Positions 2,222 to 21,043 of a stretch of DNA of 64,000 bases are shown here, in pieces. Source of the DNA: Pseudomonadota bacterium (GTDB lineage: Bacteria; Pseudomonadota; Gammaproteobacteria; Burkholderiales; Methylophilaceae); contig JAKQIT010000091.1 in the NCBI GenBank assembly GCA_029556915.1, positions 1-64,000 on the forward strand. Direction: 5' to 3'. Position 1 is the stretch's first letter. Every line of letters begins with the position of its first letter. The position numbers were made by a program, and so were the translations under genes. The notes below the pieces were generated by a model. It saw only the letters and a program-made list of their open reading frames with translations. It did no database searches and was not told the origin of the DNA.

Positions 2222-2890
2222 TTAAAAGCCCAAACTATCGAGCAAGTCATCCACTTGTTCTTGGCTTGCAACTACATCGGCAGTATTTTCAGGGTCAATT
2301 TGCGGCCCATTGAGCAACTGATTATCCGTTTCTTTTTTGATTGCATTGGGTGAAAAATCCACCAAAACTTGCACTAATTGCTGCTCAAGTTCTTGCGCTA
2401 ATGTGGTGATTTTTTTGATAACTTGCCCCGTTAAATCTTGAAAGTCTTGCGCCATCATAATATCCATCAGCAAGGCTTTGGTTTCGGTGGCGTTTTGGGT
2501 GCTACTATCTAAAAAGGCCAATGTCTCAGTCGCAATTTCGTTATATTCACTTTTGAGTGAAGCGTTTTCTAAAATAGTTTTCCATCTATTTTGCAAGTCC
2601 CCCGCTTGGGAGCTAATATTTTCTTGAAGCGGAATGGCTGCATCTGTCGCGTTCAAAACACGCTCGGCAGCTTGCTCGGTCATTTTGGCCACATATTTCA
2701 GGCGGTCGCGCGCATCAGGAATCTCATTGGCGACCTGCTCCATAATTTTATCTAGCCCTAAACCTCTTAGGCTGTCATGTAGCGCCCTCGTGACATGCCC
2801 AATGCGATTGAGCATTTCATCCTGCGGGGTCACTGCTTGCAATTGGTGTGCAAGCGTGGGTTGCGATTTTAACGCTTCGCTGTTAATCAT
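2222..2890 (-). CDS. cheZ: Chemotaxis protein phosphatase CheZ
   Basis: 222 residues, the usual CheZ length. The long helical hairpin carries MMAQDFQDLTGQVIKK around residues 145-160. The catalytic pair corresponding to E. coli Asp143/Gln147 is Asp152 and Gln156. The C-terminus ends VDDLLDSLGF, the amphipathic peptide that docks CheY-P. CheZ dephosphorylates CheY-P at the receptor array or in the cytoplasm. The start ATG overlaps the cheY stop (TAATG), so cheY and cheZ are translationally coupled and share the sigma28-type promoter upstream of cheY. Confidence 0.97.
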   Translation of the reverse strand: MINSEALKSQPTLAHQLQAVTPQDEMLNRIGHVTRALHDSLRGLGLDKIMEQVANEIPDARDRLKYVAKMTEQAAERVLNATDAAIPLQENISSQAGDLQNRWKTILENASLKSEYNEIATETLAFLDSSTQNATETKALLMDIMMAQDFQDLTGQVIKKITTLAQELEQQLVQVLVDFSPNAIKKETDNQLLNGPQIDPENTADVVASQEQVDDLLDSLGF

Positions 2891-3288
2891 TAAGCAGCTG
2901 CTTTCTCTAGCTTCTCAAATATTTTAGCTAGCTTTTCATCTAACGTAGCCGCAGTGAAAGGCTTCACCACGTAACCATTTGCCCCTGCTTGCGCAGCTGC
3001 GATAATATTTTCCTTTTTAGCCTCTGCCGTCACCATCAATACGGGCAAATGCTTAAGTTCTGGATCCGCTCGCATTTGCTGTAGCATGGTTAAACCATCC
3101 ATATTAGGCATATTCCAGTCTGAAACCACAAAGTCAAAATCCCCACCTTTGAGCTTACTTAATGCAACAACGCCGTCTTCAGCTTCATCTACATTGTTAT
3201 ACCCAAGTTCTTTTAGTAGATTTCGCACTATTCTGCGCATAGTAGAAAAGTCATCTACAACAAGAAATTTAGTATTTGGGTTGGCCAT
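2890..3288 (-). CDS. cheY: Chemotaxis response regulator CheY
   Basis: 132-residue single receiver domain. The acidic pair Asp12/Asp13, phospho-acceptor Asp57 ([10 protein letters not shown]), switch Thr87 and Lys109 all fall at the same numbers as in E. coli CheY. CheY-P binds FliM/FliN to change motor rotation. It is co-transcribed with cheZ, which makes it the best candidate for the motor-binding CheY of the two in the window. A sigma28-type promoter lies 63-89 bases upstream of its start. Confidence 0.97.
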
Positions 3289-3413: not shown

Positions 3414-4478
3414 CTAAACACGCAAAGCACGAGCGCTATTGGCCGTTAAATAATTCAGCACCAATTTGGGTAACTCTTGCAAATGTGCCACTTCGTCCAC
3501 CCCACCGTGTGCAACGGCTTCTCGCGGCATACCATACACCACACAGCTTTCTTCATTTTGTGCAAAGTTATAAGCGCCCGCTTGTTTCATATTTGCCATG
3601 CCTACTGCGCCATCTTTACCCATGCCAGTTAATATTACCCCTATTGCGTTTTTACCTGCCAAAGCCGCCGCGGAATCAAACAGCACATCGACAGAAGGTT
3701 TATGGCGATTCACAGGCGGCGCATCACTCAGTTGGGTCACATAATTTGCACCACTTCTTGCAAGCAATAAATGTTTGTCGCCAGGCGCAATATACGCATG
3801 GCCAGGCAAAATACGCTCGCCACCTTGCGCTTCTTTTACTGAAATTTTGCACAGCGAATCAAGCCTATTAGCAAATGATTTTGTGAAGCCTGCTGGCATA
3901 TGCTGAGTAATCACAATGCCAGGACAATCTGATGGCATTTGTAGCAAAAATGCTTTAATCGCTTCAGTGCCTCCAGTCGATGCGCCAATAATCAGCAGCT
4001 TTTCACTACTAATCAATGGGTTACGCAATAGTGCTGGCGCGCTATTTTGTGCGGTAGGTTGGCGCGATAATGTTTGCACTCTAGCCTTTGAGGCAGCTCG
4101 GATTTTATCGGTAATTTCGTCAGTGTATTCACGCATACCTTCAGTAATCGACATTTTCGGCTTGGTGACAAAATCTGTTGCACCCAACTCTAACGCACGC
4201 ATGGTAATCTCCGAACCCCGCTCAGTCAGGGTAGAAACCATTACCACTGGCATTGGGCGCAAGCGCATTAAGCGCTCAAGAAAATCCAAGCCATCCATTT
4301 TAGGCATCTCTACATCTAGCGTAAGTACATCAGGATTTAATTGCTTAATCATATCGCGCGCAATCAATGGGTCTGGCGCAGCGCCTACAACTTCCATGTC
4401 TTTTTGGCTGTTGATAATTTCTGTTAAAAGACTACGAATAAGCGCGGAGTCATCAATGACCAGAACTTTTATTTTCAT
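3414..4478 (-). CDS. cheB: Chemotaxis response regulator protein-glutamate methylesterase CheB
   Basis: 354 residues: an N-terminal receiver domain with phospho-acceptor Asp55 ([10 protein letters not shown]), a linker at about 130-158, and the methylesterase domain. The catalytic triad is visible as Ser167 (GASTGG), His193 (TQHMP) and Asp289 (GMGKDG). CheB removes methyl groups from receptor glutamates and deamidates glutamines, working against CheR during adaptation. It follows cheR and cheD but is separated from cheD by the ~100-bp inverted repeat at 4496-4596, which occupies almost the whole gap. Confidence 0.97.
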
Positions 4479-4599: not shown

Positions 4600-5211
4600 T
4601 TAAAACAAATCAATTTCGCCACCCACATCCGCTGTTTTGAGCTTGCTAGCGTAAGCTTCTTCACGTTTGTAAATGGTATCGTTATGCATATTTTTCAATT
4701 TTTTAACCAACACCTTGCCAGTTTTAGGAAAGTAATAGACTTTTCTTGGATAAATATCTAATAAATCCTCGCCAGTGACTCGAATACGCTCATCCTTTAA
4801 GAATTTTTTGACAAACAACGCATTACGGTCACCCACATTCATGGTGGTAAAACTTTTTAGCACATTACCGCCACCAAATATTTTGGCTTCCAAGTTCTCG
4901 CGGCGCGCACCATTACGCAATAACTGGTTAATTAACACTTCCATGGCATAAGTGCCGTAACGCATAGATTCTGATACCGGGCTATCTTTATCGGCTGCCG
5001 CACTATCGGGCAACATAAAATGATTCATGCCACCAATACCTGAAACGCTATCTCTAACGCAGGCAGAAACGCATGAACCCAACACCGTGACAATCACCAT
5101 ATCTTTATCGGTAAAATAATACTCACCTGGCGATATTTTGGCGGCATTGCAATCAAACGTGCGATCGTAATATAACGTGGTGGAGATTTCTTCTTCTAGC
5201 ATACTCATCAT
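4600..5211 (-). CDS. cheD: Chemoreceptor glutamine deamidase CheD
   Basis: 203 residues. The deamidase active site is seen as Cys47 (TVLGSCVSAC) and His64 (GGMNHFMLP). CheD converts receptor glutamines to glutamates and tunes receptor activity. The first ATG at 5211 overlaps the cheR stop; a second ATG at 5208 is better spaced from the GAGGTG ribosome-binding site, so either is possible. The C-terminus ends GGEIDLF, very like the tail of the CheZ-like protein at 24628 (GDIELF), and is not part of the catalytic fold. Confidence 0.95.
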   Translation of the reverse strand: MMSMLEEEISTTLYYDRTFDCNAAKISPGEYYFTDKDMVIVTVLGSCVSACVRDSVSGIGGMNHFMLPDSAAADKDSPVSESMRYGTYAMEVLINQLLRNGARRENLEAKIFGGGNVLKSFTTMNVGDRNALFVKKFLKDERIRVTGEDLLDIYPRKVYYFPKTGKVLVKKLKNMHNDTIYKREEAYASKLKTADVGGEIDLF

Positions 5212-6083
5212 GCCACCTCAGCTAGACGGCCTAATGCTGACTTACCAGCACTGGCTTTTAAGTCATAGACCGTTTTTCCCCTTAAATGTAACGCATCTGA
5301 AATATATAAAAAGTTTTCAGAGTGCCCTGCAAATAGCAAGGCATGCGGCTTCATCAATGGTAGAAAGCGGCTAATGATTTTTGATTGGGTAGGTTTATCA
5401 AAATAGATCATTACATTTCGGCAAAAAATCACATCAAATGGCTCTTTAAGAGGCCATTGATCATCTAATAAATTGAGTTGGTGGAAAGTAATCAGGCTTT
5501 TTAATTCGTTACGCACGCGTACTGAGCCTGCATTCGCACCCGTACCGCGTTGAAAAAATTTCTTGCAACGCACTTCAGATAACTTGCTCACCCGATCATC
5601 CGCATAAACCCCACGGGCTGCGGTGGCTAACACGTTAGTATCAATATCCGTGGCAATAATTTCTACTGGGGGGCGCATGGTGCCAAATGCTTCGCACGCC
5701 GTCATCGCAATAGTGTATGGTTCTTCCCCCGTTGAGGCGGCTGAGCACCAAATTCGAATCGGCGTTTTAAGTGCCTGCAAATGCTCGGCCAAAATAGGAA
5801 AATGATGTTCTTCACGAAAAAACGATGTTAAATTTGTGGTCAACGCATTGGTAAATGCCTGCCACTCTTCCGCACTGTCTTCATTTTCCAAATGGTCTAA
5901 ATACTCTTTAAAAGTCGCCAAGCCCAACACCCGAAGCCGACGACCCACACGGCTATAAACCATATCGGTTTTGGCTTCAGAAAGTGAAATGCCCGCATGC
6001 TGATAAATCAGTTTGCGCACTCTGGCAAAATCTTGTGCCGTAAAATCAAATTCTCGGCTTTCTTGTTGCGCTGCTTTTGCCAT
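5208..6083 (-). CDS. cheR: Chemotaxis protein methyltransferase CheR
   Basis: About 291 residues: an N-terminal helical CheR domain (FTAQDFARVRKLIYQHAGI) and a SAM-binding Rossmann domain with IRIWCSAASTGEEPYTIAM and DVIFCRNVMIYF. It methylates receptor glutamates using S-adenosylmethionine. The frame can open at GTG 6095, but ATG 6083 sits at a workable distance from AAGGG and gives the start MAKAAQQ. Three of the four receptors here end in a W-x-x-F pentapeptide that CheR-type enzymes use as a tether, which supports a working adaptation system. Confidence 0.95.
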   Translation of the reverse strand: MAKAAQQESREFDFTAQDFARVRKLIYQHAGISLSEAKTDMVYSRVGRRLRVLGLATFKEYLDHLENEDSAEEWQAFTNALTTNLTSFFREEHHFPILAEHLQALKTPIRIWCSAASTGEEPYTIAMTACEAFGTMRPPVEIIATDIDTNVLATAARGVYADDRVSKLSEVRCKKFFQRGTGANAGSVRVRNELKSLITFHQLNLLDDQWPLKEPFDVIFCRNVMIYFDKPTQSKIISRFLPLMKPHALLFAGHSENFLYISDALHLRGKTVYDLKASAGKSALGRLAEVA

Positions 6084-6142
6084 GTTACTCATCACCCTTT
6101 TTTATTCATACATCACGTCAAAATAACGTGTACTCAAGCCAA

Positions 6143-6185: not shown

Positions 6186-6749
6186 TTATCTATCCGTTGC
6201 GCGTCTTTTTTCTGGGTTTGCTGCAAATGGATGTGCAGACTCTTTATATACTTTTAGCAATTCAGCCGCTTTAGGTTCACGCGCAATCGCATTTTTAATC
6301 GCTTGCTTAGTGGCTTGGTAATTCCACTCTTGAATACGTTGGTCTATATCCGCAGATTGGTCAATAAACACACCCACACAAATAAACACATCGTCAGCCT
6401 CTTCAACTGGAATGGTGCCATCAGCGACGCAATCCATCACCGCCATCGAAACACCGCGCTGCGCTGGGCCAAACATTTGCACAGACTGCTTAGTGTTTCT
6501 AAGCGTAACTTTATTAAACATCACCGTATTTGGTTTCACCATCATATTAGGTGCCACAATCGCCAATAAACCATTCACACCCTCTTTTTGGTCGGTCAAT
6601 GTTCGGCAAAATGCATCTTCAGCCGCACTGCCACGTGGCCCCATAATGAGGTCAATGTGCGCTACATTTTTTAAGTCCAGTCCATTGCCATCAGGGCGAT
6701 TTTCAATCACCAATGCTTCACCAATTAACACACGATCAATCACAGCCAT
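6186..6749 (-). CDS. Formaldehyde-activating enzyme homologue (Fae family)
   Basis: 187 residues matching the Fae family almost end to end: VAHIDLIMGPRG, LTDQKEG, APNMMVKPNTVM, KQSVQMFGPAQRG, VADGTIP, VGVFI and YQATKQAIKNA are family signatures. Fae condenses formaldehyde with tetrahydromethanopterin in the cytoplasm of methylotrophs. The conserved His of the active site is His31; canonical enzymes have it near residue 17, because this protein has an insertion of roughly a dozen residues after GEALV. The C-terminus also extends past the usual ending at AHPF. It has a good AAGGAG ribosome-binding site. It sits between a receptor gene and cheR, far from any visible methanopterin pathway gene. 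It is probably a paralogue (Fae2/Fae3-like); catalysis versus formaldehyde sensing is open. Confidence 0.92.
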   Translation of the reverse strand: MAVIDRVLIGEALVIENRPDGNGLDLKNVAHIDLIMGPRGSAAEDAFCRTLTDQKEGVNGLLAIVAPNMMVKPNTVMFNKVTLRNTKQSVQMFGPAQRGVSMAVMDCVADGTIPVEEADDVFICVGVFIDQSADIDQRIQEWNYQATKQAIKNAIAREPKAAELLKVYKESAHPFAANPEKRRATDR

Positions 6750-6918: not shown

Positions 6919-9468
6919 TTATCCGTTAATCACGCGTAACTTTTTATGATTCATTGCACCCATTTTTTCTTCTAAACTAAATACACTCACGGCGTTCATT
7001 AACGCATCCGCTTGTTCCATTAAAGACTCTGCCGCCGCTGCCGCTTCTTCAACTAAAGCGGTATTTTGTTGCGTCACGTCGTCCATTTGCATAATTGCAT
7101 CGTTCACTTGTTCAATACCCGCGCTTTGTTCGCTTGAAGCTGCCGCAATTTCACCAATAATGTCCGTCACACGTTTGACAGAAACCACAATCTCTTGCAT
7201 GGTGCTGCCGGCATTTTCAACTTGCTGTGTGCCTTCAGCTGTTTTGTTCACTGAGTCAGTGATAAGCTCTTTAATCTCTTTTGCTGCACTGGCTGAACGC
7301 TGTGCCAAATTACGCACTTCACCTGCTACCACCGCAAAGCCTCGGCCTTGTTCACCTGCCCGCGCCGCTTCAACGGCTGCGTTTAGGGCTAAAATATTCG
7401 TTTGGAAGGCTATACCGTCAATGACAGAGATAATATCTTCAATTTTCTTGGCACTTTCGTTAATCGCGCTCATGGTACCAACCACCTCAGCAACCACATT
7501 ACCGCCCTTAACTGCAACACTAGAAGCTGCATTGGCTAATTGATTGGCTTGTTTAGCGTTGTCCGCATTTTGCTTCACTGTTGAAGAAAGCTCTTCCATG
7601 CTAGCAGCCGTTTTTTCTAAGTTGGCTGCTTGATCTTCTGTGCGGCGACTTAAATCAGCATTACCTTGCGCAATCTCTTTTGAGGCCGTGTTGATGGTTT
7701 CAACGGCATTTTTGACTGTAACGATAGGCGCTGCAATCATGCCCAGTGTTTCATTCATGCCATCAACAATCTTGCGGTAGTCGCCAAGGTGGCGAGAAGA
7801 GTCTGCACGCATATATACTTTGCCTTGGCGCGCTGCGGATGCCAGCATTTGCGCATCCTCATTGAGTGCTTTTAAGTTGGCGCGAACTTGCTCAATCGCT
7901 TCATTTACAAATGCTTTTTTGCCTGGGAATTTTTCTAATGACGCATCAAAATCGCCTTCACCAAAGGCTTTAATACAAGTGAGCGCTTTTTCTGTAAGTT
8001 CAATCTGACCCGCAACGATGGCATTAATCGCCGAGACTATTTCACTAAAACCACCTTTAAACAAATGCGCATGCAAACTCATGTCGATATTGCCTTGCAT
8101 ATGCTCGTTTGTGACCCATTTCACGGAATCTAAAACACCTTTTAATTTGCCTTTTAGGCGATCTAAATTAGTATTAATTTCCGCCTTTTTACCTGGATAT
8201 TGCTGAATTTGCACATCAAAATCGCCATCCCCAAGTGAGCGCATGACTTGAATCATTTCACCCTTTTCGCGCACATGGCCACTTACCATCAAGTTCACCC
8301 CCTGCGCCATTTGCGTGTATGCGCCTTTGTATTTATCGGCATCAATCAACACATCCACATCGCCCGCATCATGCTCTTTAGACATGTTTTCCATGTCAGA
8401 AATAAAGGATTTAATATTGCTTCTTAGCAACTCTACACCTTCATTGATAAAAGCGCGTTGACCAGGAAACTGCTCTAAAGGGGCATTAAAATTACCATTG
8501 GCAAACTCTGCAATACAAGCAGTTACTTTACGCATCACATCGGCCTGATTAGCCACCATTAGGTTAACGTTAGCTGTCATGGTTTTGTAGCTACCGTGAT
8601 ATTTATCTACATTAATCGCAGCATTGATATTGCCTGCTTTATTTTCTTCGGCCACCATTGATTGCTCATCAATCATACTTTTGAGCGTCTGTTGCATTTT
8701 TTGCATCGACACCATTAGGCTGTTGCTATCACCAGATTTCAGCTCAATTGGGCTATTTAAGTCACCATTAGCAATACGGTTAGCAATTTCAGCCACATCA
8801 TTCGGCTCGCCACCCAGCTGTTTACGTAAATTACATGTAATCAAATATCCAATCACTGCTGTCGCCAACAAGATAAGCGCACTGAGCATCATTGAAAAAT
8901 TTTCAGCTTTATCTTTAACTAATGCTGCGGCCTGCGCGCTAGATTGTCCTAGCTTTAACTTGTAATCGATGTGCGCTGCTATTTCGTTATTTGCTTTTTC
9001 TGCAGGCATTCTAATTGCAATATACAACTCATGCGCAAGCGCTTTATTATTTAAGCGTGAAGCATTTAAAATAGGTTCCATACGTGTGTAGTATTCCTGC
9101 AGCCCTGCTTTATCAGCTTGTAATAATTGTTTTTCTTTTTCATCCGCCAAGTAAACTTCATAGCCTTTAAACAACTCTGCCAACTCTGATTGCAAGTTTT
9201 GAATTGCCACTTCCACTTCAGCCATTCTTTCAGGCTCTTTAATCAGTGTATGGTTAGCCACACGAATACGTAATGTATTAAATTTGTAACGGATTTTATC
9301 CAGTTCAACCATGCTAGGCACAATATTCGTGTTTGCATAATTGGTTTCATTAAAAACATTGCCCATCTGGTACTGCCCAAGAAAGGCTATTCCAGTCAGA
9401 CCTAGGACTGAAATAAGCGTAAGTAATAACATTTTTTTAGCGACTGTCATATTTTTAATCCATTTCAT
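6919..9468 (-). CDS. Methyl-accepting chemotaxis protein with a poly-HAMP-like array
   Basis: 849 residues. A transmembrane helix at ~10-30, a helical periplasmic domain of four-helix-bundle type to ~190, a second transmembrane helix at ~191-212, then HAMP and at least three tandem ~85-residue units. Each unit carries a G-[DN]-F-[DN] segment, PG(K/Q)(K/R)A and a partner GVNLMV/AINAIV helix. The signalling domain has the invariant tip [20 protein letters not shown] near 690. Unlike its three neighbours it ends KKLRVING, without the W-x-x-F tether. The DNA just upstream of the ATG can form a hairpin (9474-9493, ACTGTA/TACAGT) that may limit initiation. Ligand unknown. Confidence 0.9.
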
Positions 9469-10000: not shown

Positions 10001-13000
10001 TTAAAACTCTTCCCACTCACCATCATCTGTACCGTTTTTTACAGTAGCTACTTTCACTGCTTTTATCGGTGCTGGCTTTAAAGGTTTGCTGCCAGCGCGT
10101 AAAGCACTGCTAGGGGCACGGCGTTCTTTTCTGTCAGATTCGCCCTCTAATTGAAACACACTGACCGCATTCATCAGCTCATCGGCTTGCTCAAGCATGG
10201 ATTCTGCCGCCGCTGCCGCTTCTTCAACTAGCGCGGTATTTTGCTGTGTCACATCATCCATCTTCATAATGGCGTCGTTCACTTGCTCAATACCTGCACT
10301 TTGCTCACTTGAGGCAGCAGCAATTTCACCAATGATGTCAGTCACTCGTTTGACAGATACAACAATCTCTTGCATGGTTTGACCCGCGTTTTCTACTTGT
10401 TGCGTACCTGCTGCCGTTTTATTCACTGAGTCAGCAATTAACTCTTTAATCTCTTTGGCTGCGGTAGCTGAGCGCTGTGCTAGGTTGCGCACTTCACCCG
10501 CCACCACCGCAAAACCTCGACCTTGCTCACCTGCACGCGCCGCTTCAACGGCTGCGTTAAGGGCTAAGATATTAGTTTGGAAGGCTATGCCGTCAATCAC
10601 TGAGATAATATCCTCAATTTTCTTAGCACTGTGATTGATGTCAGCCATAGTACTTACAACCTCTGAAACGACTTCGCCACCTTTAATCGCCACGCCAGAT
10701 GCGGCTGAGGCGAGCTGATTAGCCTGCTTCGCATTATCCGCATTTTGTTTTACTGTTGAGGCTAACTCTTCCATACTTGCCGCTGTTTTTTCTAAGTTAG
10801 CTGCTTGCTCTTCCGTGCGGCGACTTAAATCAGCATTACCTTGCGCAATCTCTTTTGTAGCTGTGTTAATCGTTTCCACTGCCACTTTAACCGTAGCAAT
10901 TGGCCCTACAATCATTTCCAAAGTCTCGTTGACGCCCTCTACAATCTTGCGGAAATCCCCTTCATGGGCACTTGCATCTGCGCGCACTGAAACGCGACCT
11001 TCATGCGCAGCATTGGCTAACATTTGCACATCGCCAACTAAGGCGTTAATAGAGGCAATACAGGTGTTTAAATTATCTTTAATATTGTTAAAGTCGCCTT
11101 GATAACGTGCAGAAATTTGTGATGGAATCTCCCCACGTGCAATACTTGCTAAGTTTTCGGCCGCCATATTTAATGGGGTTGCTATCGCATCTAAAGTTGC
11201 ATTTAAACCTTCAACCACCTTGCGATATTCGCCTAAATGTTGTGTTGCGTCAGCGCGAGTTGAAAGCACTCCTGACTCTGCCGCCTCAGCTAATAAATTT
11301 CCGTCTGCCACTAAAGCCTTAATAGCATGACCACAAGCATTTAAATTATTTTTAATAATGTTAAAGTCACCATGATATTCAGCGTTAATTTCAGCCGGAA
11401 TGACCCCTTTTGATAGGTTATCAACATAATCAGCCGCCATATTGAGTGGATTAATGACAGCTTCTAACAGTTGATTGATACCCTTACTAATATCCTGCAT
11501 AAAGCCTTCAGGTAAGGTTGTTGCATCAATGCGTTTAGTTAAATCACCCGCAACCGTTTGGCCAATCAACTCTGCCACTTTTTGCTCAGCCAACACTTCT
11601 GCAGTGCGGTCAACCCATTGCGTCATGCGGCCTAAATACTTACCATCATCTTGGTCATATACTGGGTTAAGTAACAACTCTAAATGATGCCCAGCATTAA
11701 AGGTGTCTATTTTTTTAGGGCCTTTTAGTTCCAAAGCAAAATTTGCACGGTCAGCATCATTTTCAAGATATTGCCCAACTTTGGTACCCATCATTTTTTC
11801 AACGGCAAAACCTGGGTGGCGTGTGGCAATGCCATTACGCATATTTTCAAATAATGTTACAGCAGCTTTATTCATGTAAATTAGCAGGTTATGTTCATTA
11901 GAAACCGTAACCGCCATCGAGGCATTTTCTAATGCCGCTTTAATACGGTTAACCCCATTCAATGTTTCGGTATGGTCAAAATCTAACCGTGCCTTTAACG
12001 CGCGATAAGCATCCATCACATCAGTTAATTCATCACGGTGGCCTGTTCGGCGCACGGATTCATGGTCAACCCCTTGCGCACTTAATATCAGGTAACGCAC
12101 TGCATCATGTATGCGTGGCATAATGGTTTGATAAAGCATCCATCCTAACAAAGCTGTTAGCGCCAAACCAATGACAAGAAATGCAATGCCAATTATGCTA
12201 TGCAGTTTATAATCAGATTCAGCATCTGCATAAACGTCAGCCGAAACTTTGAGTTGTAAATTAGTGAGCGCATTAATTTTATCTGAGAGCGGGTCAATTG
12301 CGGGGTATAACTCAGCACGGGTAAAATCGCTCAGGCGTTTTTCATCATGTGTGCGCAAAATGGCTTGCAAGTTAGTTGTTGCCACGTTGGCTTTAGCAAA
12401 TAATGGCTCAACCTCAGCAATCAGTTTTTTCTCGTCATCTACTAAATACGTTGATGTATAAGCTTTCCATTGTTTATCCACTTCTTTTAATGCATTGTCC
12501 ACATTGGCTTCACCTTCTGCCCATGAAAGATTACCATTACGCACTTTATGTGAAGTATCTACAATATTCACCGCATACATATCGGCTACCGTTTTCAATT
12601 GTTGCAGCGGAATCACGCGGTCTTGGTAAAGCGTCATAACAGCTTCATTGGTATTTTCAACACCCTTGATCCCCACAAAACCCACTAAAGAAATTGACAT
12701 GGTTACTGCTATAAAAATGGAGATAATGCGCGCTTTTATAGTGAAATTACGCTTATAAGCACGCAATTTATCCATCATGTTGGCAGCCCAGCTTTGCCCT
12801 TCTTTTAACTTACGGTGGTAACGCATCGCGCCTTCAATTTGCTGGCGTGAGGCTTTTTTACGCACTGAAATAAACCCAGCAGGTTGACCATGTTCAGTCA
12901 CAGGTGAAACAATGGCTTCTACCCAATAGAAGTCACCATTTTTACAACGGTTTTTAACAATCCCAATCCAGGGTTTACCCGCTTTTACCGTAGTCCATAA

Positions 13001-13204
13001 ATCTTCAAACGCTTCTGGTGGCATGTCTGGGTGACGCACAATATTATGGCTTTGACCAACCAGCTCAGCCTCACTAAAACCGCTAATATCTATAAACTCA
13101 CGGTTAACAAAAGTTATACGACCTTTTAAGTCGGTTTTTGAGACAATTTGAGCACCCTCTTTTAGCTCAACTTGTGTCTGGGTGATGGGCATATTAATTT
13201 TCAT
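10001..13204 (-). CDS. PAS-containing methyl-accepting chemotaxis protein (Aer-like N-terminus)
   Basis: 1067 residues. An Aer-type PAS domain at ~20-120 ([33 protein letters not shown]), a transmembrane helix at ~156-178, a helical extracytoplasmic domain, a second transmembrane helix at ~340-362, HAMP, a second PAS-like region at ~405-510, two or three HAMP-like repeats with [18 protein letters not shown] units at ~545-770, and the signalling domain with its tip near 888. It ends [13 protein letters not shown] fits the CheR/CheB-binding pentapeptide pattern. The Aer-like PAS suggests redox or energy sensing through a bound cofactor, but the cofactor cannot be read from sequence. Confidence 0.92.
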
Positions 13205-13426
13205 TTCAATTCCTTATTTTTGGCGCTGCCAATTTCATATCATCAACACTTTTGATGTGTTAGATATTTTTCAATCAATTACAATACCTTCTCTTTAATA
13301 TTCTGCTTATAAGGTACAGAATCTACTCAACTTAATTACGGCTAATATTGACTTTAATTCAGCAATCTGCTGTGTTATCTTTCTGATTAAAATCAATAAA
13401 AATGCTATAACATTCATCATTATGCG

Positions 13427-14758
13427 TTACACAACCTGCTGTGTTTCAACACGTTGTTGTAATTTGAGCGCATCTTTCTTTACTAAATTGCGCATGGCTA
13501 TGCGTTCAAGCTCTTTACGATTATCAACCTTAAATGTCAGTACAAAGGCCAGTAACATTAAGCCGCCTGCCAACATAAAAGATTGGTAACTTGACCCTGT
13601 ACTCACCGAAATTTTCTCGGATACTTTAATCAAAACAAACCCACCAATACCCCATGCAGTAAACAGCATTCCATAAATCGCACCAAAATGACGCATCCCC
13701 CAAAAGTCTTTAACGTAATTTGGAAAGAGCACTAAATTAGCGCCATAACTCATTCCGATTAAAGTGGCAGCTGACATAATCCAAAATGAATGTACAGACT
13801 TCGAAAGTGAAAATGCTGCAAACATGAGAACAGTTTGCAATAAAAAGGCTGCACTCAGTACATTTCTGCGACCAAAGCGGGTTGATAATGTACCAGTCAG
13901 TATGCGGCCAGTTGCATCACCAACAGCTAAAATCACTATGGCCAAATAAGCCAATTCACCCATACTCAATTTAGCTAATGGCTTTAAATTGCCGATTACC
14001 ATTAAGCCAGCACCAGCACCAATGAACATCAACATCCATAACACCCAAAATCTCGACTCTCTCAAGACATGCAAAGGTGATAATACATCTTCATCAAGAT
14101 GTGACATGGCATCACGTTTTCTATCATTTCTTGCAGCACGTCTTTCTTCAAAACCTGGTGGTACATAACCATAAGGTGGTGTATGCAAAAAAAATGAAAA
14201 AAGTGAAATCAATAAGAAAAATTGCAATGCAAAAAACAGCATGGTTTTATTTAAACCACTACCTGTGACTAAATAGCTAGCCAATGGCGCCACGTAAACC
14301 GACGCTAAAGCAAAACCAGAAACCACTACGCCTGTGACTAAACCACTTTTATTTGGGGCAAACCACTTAAGCGCAGCTGGTGTGGTTGAGGCATACGCAA
14401 AACCAATACCGGCACCAACTAAGCCGCCAAAACCTATCATCCATACCCAATAATTCACTGAACTAGCAATCAACAAAAAACCAGCTGCACCCAACAAACC
14501 ACCCATAAGTGCTACTTTTTTTGGCCCTAAAGTATCTTGCAAACGCCCAGCAGGCACCATCACAATAGCAAAAACCAAACAGCAAAGCGCGTAAGGGTCG
14601 TTAATAGAAGTTATATCCCATTGGAAAGCATTTACCCCACCAGCTTGAATAGAGGTCACAATTGCTTCTTTAAAGATGCTCCAAGCATATAGAACGCCAA
14701 TCACCAGATTAATGCCCGCCGCTGCAGCAACGACAGTTTTATGTTTAGCAGAAAACAT
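13427..14758 (-). CDS. MFS transporter of the oxalate/formate antiporter (OFA) family
   Basis: 443 residues with about 12 hydrophobic helices. OFA-family features are AGINLVIGVLYAWSIF at the N-terminus, a GRLQDTLGPKKVALMGG loop between helices 2 and 3, GVVVSGFALASV in helix 5, and the PPGF segment in the central loop. OFA members exchange or import small carboxylates such as oxalate, formate or related monocarboxylates across the inner membrane. The substrate here is not known. The gene lies in tandem between two chemoreceptor genes and is the only transporter in the chemotaxis block. Confidence 0.85.
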   Translation of the reverse strand: MFSAKHKTVVAAAAGINLVIGVLYAWSIFKEAIVTSIQAGGVNAFQWDITSINDPYALCCLVFAIVMVPAGRLQDTLGPKKVALMGGLLGAAGFLLIASSVNYWVWMIGFGGLVGAGIGFAYASTTPAALKWFAPNKSGLVTGVVVSGFALASVYVAPLASYLVTGSGLNKTMLFFALQFFLLISLFSFFLHTPPYGYVPPGFEERRAARNDRKRDAMSHLDEDVLSPLHVLRESRFWVLWMLMFIGAGAGLMVIGNLKPLAKLSMGELAYLAIVILAVGDATGRILTGTLSTRFGRRNVLSAAFLLQTVLMFAAFSLSKSVHSFWIMSAATLIGMSYGANLVLFPNYVKDFWGMRHFGAIYGMLFTAWGIGGFVLIKVSEKISVSTGSSYQSFMLAGGLMLLAFVLTFKVDNRKELERIAMRNLVKKDALKLQQRVETQQVV

Positions 14759-14829
14759 TAATCACTACTCCAAAGGTAACTTATTAAATACAGCTTCATT
14801 AATAACGCAAGTGTTATATTCTTTTTCAA

Positions 14830-17800
14830 TTAAAACTCTTCCCACTCGCCGTCATCAGTGCCAGTTTTTGCTAACACTTTTACTGGTGCTGGTTTTGCTG
14901 CCATTTTTGTTGTAGTATTGTTTACTGGTTTATTTGCAGTTAGAATAGGTTTTCGCAATGGGCTGTTGCTTGCACGGCGCTCTAGGGTAGAGTTGCTTCC
15001 ATTTAGTTTGAATGCGCTCACCACATCAATTAAGCTTTCGGCTTGCTCTACCAAACTTTCGGCTGCCGCTGCGGCCTCCTCAACCAAGGCAGCATTTTGT
15101 TGGGTCACTTCATCCATGCTGGTTACCGCACTATTGACTTGGTCAATGCCTGCGCTTTGTTCTACTGACGCCGCTGTAATTTCACCCATAATATCTGTCA
15201 CACGCTGTACTGAGCTGACGATTTCTTGCATGGTTTTACCTGCATTTTCTACTTGCGCTGTTCCTTCTGCCGTTTTGCTAACTGAATCAGTGATCAGTTC
15301 TTTAATCTCTTTTGCAGCAGTGGCTGAACGTTGTGCTAAGTTGCGCACTTCACCCGCCACCACGGCAAAGCCGCGGCCTTGTTCGCCTGCTCGTGCAGCT
15401 TCTACAGCAGCGTTGAGTGCAAGAATATTGGTTTGGAAGGCAATACCATCAATGACTGAAATAATATCTTCAATCTTTTTAGCACTTTGGTTAATCGCGC
15501 TCATTGTGTTCACCACTTGCCCAACCACTTCGCCGCCTTTAACCGCTACAGTAGAGGCACTGGCAGCCAGTTGATTGGCTTGTTTAGCATTTTCAGCATT
15601 ATTTTTAACGGTTGAAGCAAGCTCTTCCATGCTGGCAGCGGTTTCTTCTAAGCTTGAAGCTTGTTGCTCAGTGCGGCTTGAAAGGTCATTATTGCCAGAA
15701 GATATTTCACCCGCAGCAGTGTTAATGGTTTCACCAGCCTCACGAACTTGCACAATCACTTCGGTCATTTTGTCCATTAAGGCATTCACACCATCGCAAA
15801 GGCTAGCAATAGCGCCAGTTTTACCCTCTAGCGGCACACGGCTAGTTAAATCTCCTGTTTTTGCGCCTTCAATCACATGTTGAGTTTCTTCAACGGCATC
15901 CGCTAAAGTTGCTGCATTATTGTATTGCTCAGTAATATCGGTTGCGTATTTCACCACTTTGAATGGTTTACCGTTCATATCCATAATTGGGTTGTAGCTG
16001 GCTTGTAGCCATACTTCACGACCACCTTTGGCAATACGTTTGTATTGACCTGCATCCGCTTCACCTCTGGCTAATTTTTCCCAGAATGCCTTATATTCAT
16101 GGCTAGATTTATATGCTGGCTCCACAAACATGCTGTGATGATTGCCTACGATTTCTTTTTCACTATAACCAGTCACAGCGGCAAAGTTATCATTCACCGC
16201 TGTGATATTACCTTTGAGGTCAAACTCAATCACACCTTGAATTTTACTAATAGCGGTGATTTGACCCGCATTATCAGCGGCTTGAATTTTTTGCTCAGTA
16301 ATGTCGATGGTGTAGTTCACAATCTTAAATGGGTTGCCCTTCAAGTCGTAAATTGGGTTGTATGAAGCTTGAATCCAGACTTCACGGCCACCTTTGGCTA
16401 TACGTTTGTATTGGCCAGCATCGGTACCACCACTGACTAATTTAGCCCATAAATCTCTATAGGCTTGGCTATTAGCAAAAGTTGGGTCTAATACCATGCT
16501 GACATGTTTACCTAGCAACTCATGTTCTTGATAGCCAAGCATATCCAGATACACTTGGTTGACCTTGGTAATAATGCCATCTAAACAAACCTCAATCACA
16601 CCTTGAGATTTCCCAATAGCCGTCATTTGGCCTTCAAAGTCGGCATTTTTATTTTTTTGTTCGGTAATATCAGTCGCATATTTCACAACTTTGTATGGCT
16701 TACCTGCTGCGCTTAAAATTGGATTGTAAGAGGCTTCCAACCAAACTTCTTTGCCACCCTTGCCCACACGTGAGAATTGACCAGAAACGGCTTCACCACG
16801 ATTGAGTTTTTCCCAAAATGCTTTGTATTCTGCACTGGTTTTGTATTCAGATTCTACAAATTGACTATGATGTTGACCTATTGCCTCTTCACGGCTATAG
16901 CCCAGCACTTTTAAGAAAATATCATTGGCAGCAATCACTTTGCCATCCAGGCTAAATTCAATCACACCAGTAGATTTGCTAATTGCAGCTAATTGATTTT
17001 CATATAAAGTTGATTGTTCAATTGTTTCAGCGGCACTCTCTTTTAAGGTGTTTTCGTTCACACTAAGTAAAGTTTGCATTTTTTTCAACGCTTGCAACAC
17101 TTGGCTTAACTCATTGTTGCCTTGAGCATCAATAGCAGCACTGTAGTTACCCGCGGTTATTTGCCCCAACGCACTAATCGACTTTTCTAAAGGTTTTGTA
17201 ATTGAGCGTGAAATCAACAAGCCTAACCAAGATAAAAGCACAACAACTAAAGCTAAACCTGCAAATGTAAGCAAGCGTACTGATTCAAATCGGCTTATGG
17301 CAGATTGATGTTCATTTTTGGCAATATCTAGCTGTAGATCTTTTAAAGCTTGCAAATCTTTATCAGTTGCATTATACAAATCGCGGACATTTGCGTTTAC
17401 CCGCGCTAATTCTTGATAATTTCCTGCCCGTAATTGTGCTATTGCTGGCTTTAAGGCTTTAGCTACATATTCGTCACGGCTTACAGCAAATTTATCAGCC
17501 AAAAGTTTCTCTTCTGGTGTGATATAGGTAGCCAAGTAAGCGGACCATTTCTTATTGATTTCTTCAATTTTTAACTCTATATAATGCGCCTCTTTCAAAG
17601 CATTTTGAGTATCTAGAGTCAGTGCTGACTTTTTATCTGCACCAATCACAGTATGCGTTTCATTTAAGGCGGCATGGATATGCGCGCGACTTTTAAGCAT
17701 ATACATACCAATATTATCCAACTGTTCTAACGGCACCATTCGATCTTCATAAACTGTCTTCATGCTATTGTCTGCTTTTGACATCTCAAATAAGCCTATG

Positions 17801-18357
17801 CTGGCTTGCGCGACAACCACTGCAACAGCTAAGGCCACCACGCCAAGTAATCGCTGGGTGACTTTAATATTGCTAAGTTTATTTTTAAGCTTGGTATAGC
17901 TGGAGTTTTTAACTACTTTTCCATCTAAAATGCTGAGGCCTTTAGCATTGCCATCTTTAAATAAGCGATAAGCCGCAGTTGCTGCCTCAACTTGTTGGCG
18001 CGTTGGTTTTCTACGCACTGACAAAAAGCCAACAACTTGATTGTTTTCCATAATAGGCGTTGCATTGGCTTCCACCCAGTAAAAATCGCCACTCTTGGTG
18101 CGATTTTTAACTAAACCTGTCCATGGTTTACCCGCCTTTAGGCTTCGCCACATATCCTCAAATGCCTCCACAGGCATATCAGGGTGGCGCACAATATTGT
18201 GGTTAGAGCCTACAAGCTCTGCTTCGCTGAAGCCACTAATGGTGATAAAGTCCTTATTAGCGTAAGTGATAGCGCCTTTAAGGTCTGTTTTGGTTAACAT
18301 AAACTGTGAATCATCAAATTGAATTTCTGTATTGGTGACTGGCATATTGATTTGCAT
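14830..18357 (-). CDS. Membrane chemoreceptor with four PAS domains
   Basis: 1175 residues. Aer-type PAS at ~20-115, a transmembrane helix at ~170-192, a helical periplasmic domain, a second transmembrane helix at ~365-388, HAMP at ~390-445, then three closely similar cytoplasmic PAS/PAC units at ~460-560, 580-685 and 705-805. Each unit has GYS/GYQ plus H..MF/FVE plus a GGREVW or GGKEVW(I/L)(Q/E)ASYNPI strand. A HAMP-like linker and signalling domain follow, tip near 986. It ends DDGEWEEF, a receptor tether. The PAS repeats probably arose by internal duplication. Cofactor and ligand unknown. Confidence 0.92.
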
Positions 18358-18418
18358 TTTATTTCCTTTACTTCATTTAGCTTATAATGTGTGAGACTCT
18401 AAGTGTCCCAGAGTTTTT

Positions 18419-21043
18419 CTAAAACTCTTCCCAATCACCATCATCAGTGCCAGTTTTTGCTACGGCTTTAGTGGGTGATGGACGTGGTGCTGGCTTAGTC
18501 GCTGGAGTGCGTGATGCCACTGGGCGACTTGGTGCTGCACTTCGCATTGGGCTTTGATTTGAACGCCGTTCAGTTTTGCCTGCATTAGCATTATTTAACT
18601 TAAACCCATTAACCGTATCCATCAGGGTCACCGCCTGCTCTACCAAGCTTTCTGCAGCCGCAGCGGCTTCTTCTACCAATGCAGCATTTTGTTGGGTGAC
18701 TTCATCCATGCTGGTGATGGCGTTGTTTACTTGGTCAATACCAGCGCTTTGCTCGCTTGATGCTGCGGAAATTTCACCCATAATATCGGTAACACGCTGC
18801 ACAGAGCTTACAATCTCTTGCATGGTTTTACCTGCATTTTCTACTTGCACAGTACCTTCGGCTGTTTTGCGCACTGAGTCTGTAATCAACTCTTTAATTT
18901 CTTTAGCAGCTGAGGCTGAACGTTGTGCCAAATTACGCACTTCCCCTGCCACCACCGCAAAGCCTCGGCCTTGTTCGCCAGCCCGCGCCGCCTCAACGGC
19001 AGCGTTTAAGGCTAAGATATTAGTTTGGAAGGCAATGCCATCAATGACTGAAATAATATCTTCAATTTTCTTGGCACTTTCGTTGATTGAGCTCATGGTG
19101 GAGACCACTTGACCTACGACTTCGCCACCTTTAATTGCAACACCAGAAGCTGCTGCTGCCAGTTGATTTGCCTGTTTAGCATTTTCTGCATTTTGTTTTA
19201 CTGTCGAAGCGAGTTCTTCCATACTAGAAGCGGTTTCTTCTAAACTAGAGGCTTGTTGTTCGGTGCGGCTTGAAAGGTCATTATTGCCTGTAGAAATTTC
19301 ACCAGCAGCAGTGTTAATGGTTTCACCCGCTTCACGTACCTGAAATATGATATCGTTCACACTATCAAGTAGATGATTCACCGCCTCCATTGTTTTCGCT
19401 GCTGCCCCTTTAACATTACTGTAATCAAGTCGATGACTCAAATCCCCACTGGCTGCAGCCTCAACCACATCCTTAATTTCTGACTCAGCACGTTTTTCTT
19501 CTGTCAAATTCACCCACTCTGCAACACTGCCGATACGCTCACCTTTTTCGTCAAATATTGGGCTAGCAGTAATGCGTAAAAATAAATCGCTTACTGGCAT
19601 TTCAACTGTATGCTTTTGAGATAATCCAGCTAACAGACTGCGTTGGTGTGCGGGATTTTTATGGAAAACATCAAAGTTTTGCCCGATTAATTTATCTGCA
19701 TCAAAATTGGGTAAGACCTTACGCATAGAAGTTTGTATCTCGCGCATCATCGCAAGTGTCGATGGATTCATATAGGTGATGATTCCATTGTTATCTGCTA
19801 CCATCAAATTTGCAGATGATGACTCTAGAGAGTTTTTAATCATCATTGATTCAAGCGCATTTTTAGCTTGCTCTTTTTCAGCTATCACTGACTTTGTAAT
19901 ATCTGTAGCATATTTAACCACTTTATACGGTTTGCCATTTGCGTCAAAAATCGGGTTATAAGTAGCCTGTAACCAGACTTCTTTACCGCCTTTTCCAATA
20001 CGTTTATAAACGCCACCATCTGGCTCGCCTTTTCCTAATTTATCCCAAAAAGCTTTATATTCACTACTAGATTTATAAGTGGCATCCACAAACATGCTAT
20101 GGTGACTCCCTACAATCTCTTGCTTGCTGTAGCCAGTCACCGCCGCAAAGTTGTCATTCACATCTAAAATTTTTCCAGTTAAATCAAATTGAATCACCCC
20201 TTGCAATTTGTTAATTGCTTTCAATTGCCCTTCATAGTCAGCAATTTTCATTTTTTCTGCAGTAATGCAATAGGAGTAAACAACAACTTTATAAGGTCTA
20301 CCAGACTCATCACTAATAGGTACATAGGTTGATTGAAACCAATATTCTTTTCGGTCTTTTGAGATGCGGCGGATTTGTCTGGTTACGCTTTTCCCAGCGT
20401 TAAGTTCTTCCCACATTTTTTTGTACTCAGTGCTTTGCCCCACTTCTGGTGGCAGCAATATCCCGACGTGATGACCTACTAGCTCATCTCGCTTGTAACC
20501 TAGCGGCTCCATAAAAATTGAGTTACATTCGGTAATATTGCCCGTCATGTCACATTCCATGACACCAAAAGTCTGATTGAGCGCTTCATCCTCACCCTGA
20601 AGTATCATCGCTCGGGTGAGCTCAGCCGTAATATCAGTTAAATAACTGACCACCTTAATAAGTTGATGTTTGCTATTAATGACTGGCGCGTAATAGCCTT
20701 GAAACCAAACATCAGCGCCACTTTTGCTTTTAAATTTAAACTTGCCAGTTTGTGTAGTGCCACCCTGCAGATTTTCCCAAAAAGCTTCATATTCTGGACG
20801 GTTACTTTCAGTACTACCTACTAACACGCGATGATGTTCACTAATGATGTCAGACTGACTATAACCAAGCGCTTTTAAGGCGTTTTGATTTATGGCGATA
20901 ATTTTGCCTTTTGCATCAAACTCAAGCACAGAGCGCGCTTTGTTAATTTCTGCTTTTAAGGCACGAAACTCAGTGACTTCATCGATAATTTTTTTTGTCG
21001 CTTTTGTGCTACCAGCAAGCTTATTAATAATGGATGCAAACAT
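18419..21043 (-). CDS. Soluble chemoreceptor with four PAS domains
   Basis: 874 residues with no hydrophobic segment long enough to span the membrane, so it is probably cytoplasmic and joins the array through its signalling domain. PAS/PAC units lie at ~35-135, 155-260, 275-385 and 400-515; the third is very close to PAS units of the 1175-residue receptor ([11 protein letters not shown]). A HAMP-like segment at ~520-575 precedes the signalling domain, tip near 684. It ends DDGDWEEF, again a W-x-x-F tether. It follows cheW by 42 bases and is likely in the cheY-cheA-cheW unit. Confidence 0.92.

Follow-up and report, generated by a model that had tools for sequence, protein, structure and literature searches.

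A gene for formaldehyde-activating enzyme (Fae) has been described at a chemotaxis locus before. The available text of PMC4109929 places one fae in a conserved chemotaxis cluster of new Methylophilaceae and of the earlier Methylotenera, unlike in Methylovorus and Methylobacillus. In sediment, expression of an M. versatilis counterpart was raised about ten-fold, and a function in sensing, signalling or regulation was proposed for the fae of this cluster (accessible portions of PMC3728764 and PMC4109929). Formaldehyde-linked chemotaxis is likewise known from another methylotroph, Methylobacterium aquaticum 22A; according to the available part of PMC10613068, its MtpA is a cytosolic receptor, not a Fae, and formaldehyde taxis in 22A works without Fae. 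Methylobacterium extorquens Fae (PDB 1y5y, 1y60) belongs to the same family as the protein studied here, whose residues 4–178 align with it (E 1.3e-55). The two differ in the loop before the histidine, which is nine residues longer here, in extra C-terminal residues and in the location of our gene in a che operon.

We analysed a 64,000-nucleotide stretch of Methylophilaceae DNA (the window) that carries such a fae. Gene and arrangement are the same as in the published Methylotenera and their relatives, so the placement itself is not new. Compared with the available text of PMC3728764 and PMC4109929, a C-terminal extension, the empty insertion site and the loss of fae together with che genes are additions made here.

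Results

The window encodes a canonical Fae between a chemoreceptor and CheR

The fae gene (6186..6749, reverse strand, as are all genes of the operon) is an intact ORF of 187 codons with an ATG start and an upstream AAGGAG. Over its full length, the product matched both the Pfam Fae model (PF08714), with 207.6 bits (cut-off 27), and NCBIfam TIGR03126, with 199.5 bits (cut-off 118.05). Upstream lies a chemoreceptor gene (6919..9468; 4HB_MCP and HAMP domains, MCPsignal), and downstream follow cheR (5208..6095), cheD (4600..5211), cheB (3414..4478), cheY (2890..3288; a response regulator match, named from its position) and cheZ (2222..2890). The codon at 6657..6659 (reverse strand) encodes His31, which aligns with the histidine of Methylobacterium Fae that we take to be catalytic; it lies in an AHID motif, and it was invariant across 31 aligned Methylophilaceae Fae. 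By model score, tree position and selection on its core, the window protein is best classed as a canonical Fae.

Reference proteins of the tetrahydromethanopterin and RuMP pathways were compared with all window ORFs. Only Fae and its paralogues Fae2 and Fae3 gave matches, all at the fae ORF. The preliminary description, made from the window alone, was thus right in placing fae between a chemoreceptor gene and cheR, away from any methanopterin pathway gene. In the window's genome, Mch and its pathway neighbours are on another contig, and no fae was present in the 19.5 kb read around them. The genome has four Fae-family genes, the window fae included: one of the other three is 74% identical to it, and two, presumably Fae2 and Fae3, are distant (about 29–32%).

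The 74% copy (L123, 8005–8640, contig C49) is canonical-like and lies beside an amino acid permease gene and near ethanolamine ammonia-lyase genes (EutBC). Fae copies of 71–73% identity occur in G144, G171 and G172 and may be of the same type. A distant Fae-like gene (L124, 8235–8783) lies near a sarcosine-oxidase-like operon, which perhaps belongs to the N-methylglutamate pathway. Elsewhere in the window, an MFS transporter gene of the L-lactate/oxalate-formate kind (13427–14758) is situated between chemoreceptor genes, and three chemoreceptors encoded within 10001–21043 end in WEEF, which presumably resembles the pentapeptide that docks CheR in other receptors.

As to co-transcription of fae with the che genes, promoter-like signals numbered 4 against 6.6 in shuffled sequences and terminator-like signals 4 against 3.0, one of them between fae and cheR. 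A search for a sigma-28-like promoter upstream of fae at 30 loci, run without a control, gave best scores of 7–10 of 12 positions, none convincing. The gaps flanking fae were 36–69 bp in Methylophilus and mostly about 100–500 bp on both sides in Methylotenera. In Methylophilus (L093, 9939–10000, and ten relatives), a small hairpin followed by a T run, perhaps a terminator, lies between the receptor stop codon and fae. With five pairs and one two-sided change in one sequence, there was too little to call this hairpin a conserved structure.

The loop insertion before His31 is not related to chemotaxis

An insertion of roughly a dozen residues next to the catalytic histidine had also been reported. 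Its position just before His31 was confirmed; its size is nine residues, because the loop between GEALV and AHID (residues 15–29; 6663..6707, reverse strand) has 15 residues against 6 in Methylobacterium Fae. We then compared loop lengths. All 41 che-linked Fae had 14–16 residues, and so did most Fae from other Methylophilaceae loci (15–16 in 31 of 40; 9 in two; seven unparsed). Methylobacterium Fae has a six-residue loop, as do 34 of 38 Fae from outside the family (four unparsed) and the 2 parsed members out of 14 of a further Methylophilaceae subtype with about 60% identity. Since pathway-linked Methylophilaceae Fae have the same loop length, the insertion was ruled out as a chemotaxis feature.

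The che location is conserved in one branch of the family

For 187 Methylophilaceae genomes, 107 Fae loci were listed with an identity of 69% or more. Sorted by distance, 49 of them fell within 5 kb of CheD, 33 lay no more than 12 kb from Mch, and 25 were near neither, some of these 25 on short contigs. Counted per genome, fae was che-linked in 49, pathway-linked in 25 and both in none. The che-linked genomes mostly carried Mch (46 of 49), and 32 of the 49 had no other Fae of at least 56% identity among those listed. We also scanned named genomes, in which 85 loci contained a relative of the query. Among the best 80, CheR was directly downstream of fae in 40, and 36 of these had the full order Fae-CheR-CheD-CheB-CheY-CheZ; 32 lay among pathway genes, six near neither, and two were labelled as having a chemoreceptor only. 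One of these two (L036) runs off its contig; the other (L110), on reading, is outside this che operon. The gene order, which had been put forward for checking across the family, is thus conserved across the Methylotenera/Methylophilus branch and is not an accident of one genome.

At L110 (1–5488), which comes from a CheD-less genome, fae is oriented divergently from a neighbouring CheW/CheR/receptor-like cluster. This cluster is of a different chemosensory type, with proteins 25–30% identical to those of the window.

A sample of 399 genomes from the order contained Fae in 44, of which 37 were outside the family. Pathway genes accompanied fae at all 30 loci examined from 30 of the 37, and no che gene was found in the flanks of about 1.5 kb at these loci; the other seven genomes, mostly with weaker Fae matches, stand outside this count. 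The pathway location therefore looks ancestral.

Among the 131 Mch-bearing Methylophilaceae genomes, 42 had no listed Fae of at least 56% identity and carried distant Fae-like genes at most; one of them (G150) has a 46-residue Fae fragment. One genome with the pathway but without true Fae had already been published (PMC4109929, available text).

fae probably entered an existing che operon

We built a tree from 142 Fae with FastTree. In it, the che-linked proteins and four Methylotenera Fae from CheD-less genomes formed one clade (local support 0.88), nested among the other, pathway-linked Fae of the family. To this we added ten che regions fetched from other genera; one (G007) proved to be che-linked, leaving nine. 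In seven of the nine, a chemoreceptor gene was directly before cheR, with gaps of 29–391 bp and no fae. Of the remaining two, one was truncated by a contig end and one had no recognised receptor gene at that place. In G022, which belongs to the che branch, 11 bp separate the receptor gene from cheR, and no true Fae is listed for this genome. Together, these data point to a single relocation or copying event that put fae in the che operon. The Fae of three g22 genomes in the che branch is of the other kind and, in two of these genomes, lies near Mch. Copying with a later loss is therefore no less possible than a clean move.

A C-terminal extension accompanies the che-linked Fae

The window protein was said to have a longer C-terminus than canonical Fae, and it indeed extends nine residues beyond Methylobacterium Fae. 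The short tail PEKRRATDR (6189..6215, reverse strand) is a reduced form of an extension found in che-linked Fae. At least 10 residues (range 10–59) followed the HPFxA motif in 40 of 41 che-linked Fae, two of which were read by eye, whereas at other Methylophilaceae loci at most three followed it in 39 of the 40 Fae (duplicates counted; four of the 40 from loci without an assigned pathway gene). Tails of 48–59 residues contain two related repeats and those of 29–34 residues one; these repeats are conserved and helical. The M. mobilis-like group, to which the window belongs, and two further loci have 10–13 residues. There were three exceptions: a che-linked Fae with two residues after the motif (L053), the CheD-less genome whose Fae keeps a short tail (L110), and a pathway-linked Fae with a 12-residue tail ending in RRAEDN (L106). 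In three CheD-less genomes with Fae, 4–6 residues were left.

Seven residues of the first repeat are invariant across 17 aligned copies, which were chosen from gap-free ones. Within four groups, pN/pS of the long tails was 0.17, 0.34, 0.06 and 0.26 (core, 0.02–0.06); when the groups were drawn differently, the values were 0.39 and 0.27. The long tails are under purifying selection. Between groups the value rose to 0.59, with synonymous sites near saturation. In the short-tail group of the window it was 0.43, close to the 0.40 of the terminal codons of one pathway-linked group (few codons), and the window's own tail is therefore no good evidence of function.

We searched 16 genomes for a second protein with the repeat and found none. 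Eight genomes gave matches below E 0.01, all of which were Fae, and other proteins gave partial matches with E values above 0.1; a general targeting tag was thus not supported in these 16 genomes. Nor was an amphipathic helix, as the moment of five repeat units was no higher than that of shuffled sequences. Comparison with solved structures returned weak matches to designed helical repeats only, with no single stretch significant. In the predicted M. methylotrophus Fae the tail is one long helix (186–234), in a poor model (mean pLDDT 58.8). Homology of the tail to chemotaxis proteins was sought and not found. Text searches, which covered few subscription papers, found no paper on a Fae with a C-terminal extension, and the tail that accompanies che-linked Fae seems undescribed.

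Fae is often absent where chemotaxis is absent

A species tree of 100 of the 131 Mch-bearing genomes was built from four pathway proteins rather than general markers. Its midpoint root cannot be relied on, and the positions of G007 and the g22 genomes in it are weak or mixed. In the che branch, 57 genomes were at least 90% complete. Counting Fae as present at 76% identity or more, 32 had both CheD and Fae, 16 neither, seven Fae only and two CheD only (Fisher p 4.5e-7, kinship ignored). Four of the seven Fae-only genomes had a Fae of the che-linked clade and three one of the other kind. When 69 genomes at least 85% complete were used and only losses were allowed, 11 of 16 clades that lost che were exactly clades that lost Fae; missing contigs can mimic losses of either. 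Mch stays in these clades, indicating that Fae is dispensable there.

As a control, we used 28 genomes of other lineages, in which Fae was missing from 5 of 12 CheD-less and 0 of 16 CheD-bearing genomes (tip labels). In these lineages fae and che are mostly unlinked, so part of the association may reflect genome reduction. Neighbouring fae and che genes may also go in one deletion. The losses demonstrate that cells can do without Fae; they do not demonstrate that it serves chemotaxis. In three CheD-less genomes, Fae was retained in a new location beside a gene that we take to be peroxiredoxin-like, indicating that Fae can persist without chemotaxis.

Core pN/pS was 0.03–0.08 in three che-linked groups, 0.06–0.11 in three other groups and 0.04 in the three CheD-less genomes with Fae. 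Constraint on the Fae core is strong and does not depend on where the gene is located.

Discussion

We consider it probable that the window gene encodes a canonical and probably active Fae that was moved or copied once from the pathway cluster and still condenses formaldehyde with tetrahydromethanopterin. In the common ancestor of the Methylotenera/Methylophilus branch, the gene would have left the tetrahydromethanopterin cluster, or been copied from it, and landed between a pre-existing chemoreceptor gene and cheR. The enzyme would retain its cytoplasmic reaction, its new position would provide co-expression with motility, and the extension may localise or dock it to a putative partner. The constraint on the core and the lack of another listed true Fae in 32 of the 49 che-linked genomes suggest a working metabolic Fae under a motility operon. 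The window's species has no more than nine residues of the extension, and a purely metabolic function combined with che co-expression therefore seems most likely there. Of the role in chemotaxis or co-expressed detoxification suggested in the preliminary description, the conserved synteny holds and the canonical protein fits metabolism or co-expressed detoxification, while the insertion is not specific to che-linked Fae. Of the features it named, the longer C-terminus is the informative one, although this species has the short form of it.

Plain relocation would not predict the conserved extension found with the move, and this extension is the only feature that hints at a physical connection with chemotaxis. 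Che-linked Fae might thus have two functions, catalysis and the reporting of formaldehyde or its flux to chemotaxis, with the tail docked on a receptor, CheR, CheD or the array. The near-exclusive occurrence of the tail at che loci, the purifying selection on its long forms, its restriction to Fae among significant matches in 16 genomes, its disappearance in three CheD-less genomes that keep Fae, the joint absence of che and Fae in 11 of 16 clades and the sensing role already proposed in print (PMC3728764, available text) all agree with this. We nevertheless regard it as unlikely: L053, L110 and L106 break the correlation, the window's tail is nine residues long in a weakly constrained group, the tail has no detected homology to chemotaxis proteins, and Fae is also missing from some CheD-less genomes of lineages in which the genes are mostly unlinked, so that shared loss may only reflect genome reduction. 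Moreover, a Methylobacterium fae1 fae2 hgd mutant kept formaldehyde taxis (PMC10613068, available part), and such Fae-free taxis weakens the case for a sensing role of Fae in Methylophilaceae. More specifically, the tail repeats might anchor Fae to the chemoreceptor array or to the adaptation enzymes, and occupancy of the enzyme by formaldehyde or its carrier would then be read directly as a motility signal; this proposal appears quite improbable.

At the other extreme, fae could be a neutral insertion in the che operon and its tail run-on coding sequence of little function. The wide gaps in Methylotenera, as if fae were its own unit there, are consistent with this, as are the variable tail length, with shortening or absence in several lineages, and the between-group pN/pS, subject to its near-saturated synonymous sites. 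But the position has been kept in 49 genomes, the first repeat retains its invariant residues in the gap-free copies chosen, and within-group pN/pS is well below 1, which makes a mere passenger doubtful as well.

A metabolic Fae co-expressed with motility remains our preferred reading. If docking were nonetheless true, the loss of chemotaxis would remove a reason to keep che-linked Fae. The frequent lack of true Fae in genomes that otherwise keep the pathway raises the question of how formaldehyde enters it. The link between Fae and chemotaxis was proposed more than a decade ago, and a defined, removable extension makes the idea directly testable.
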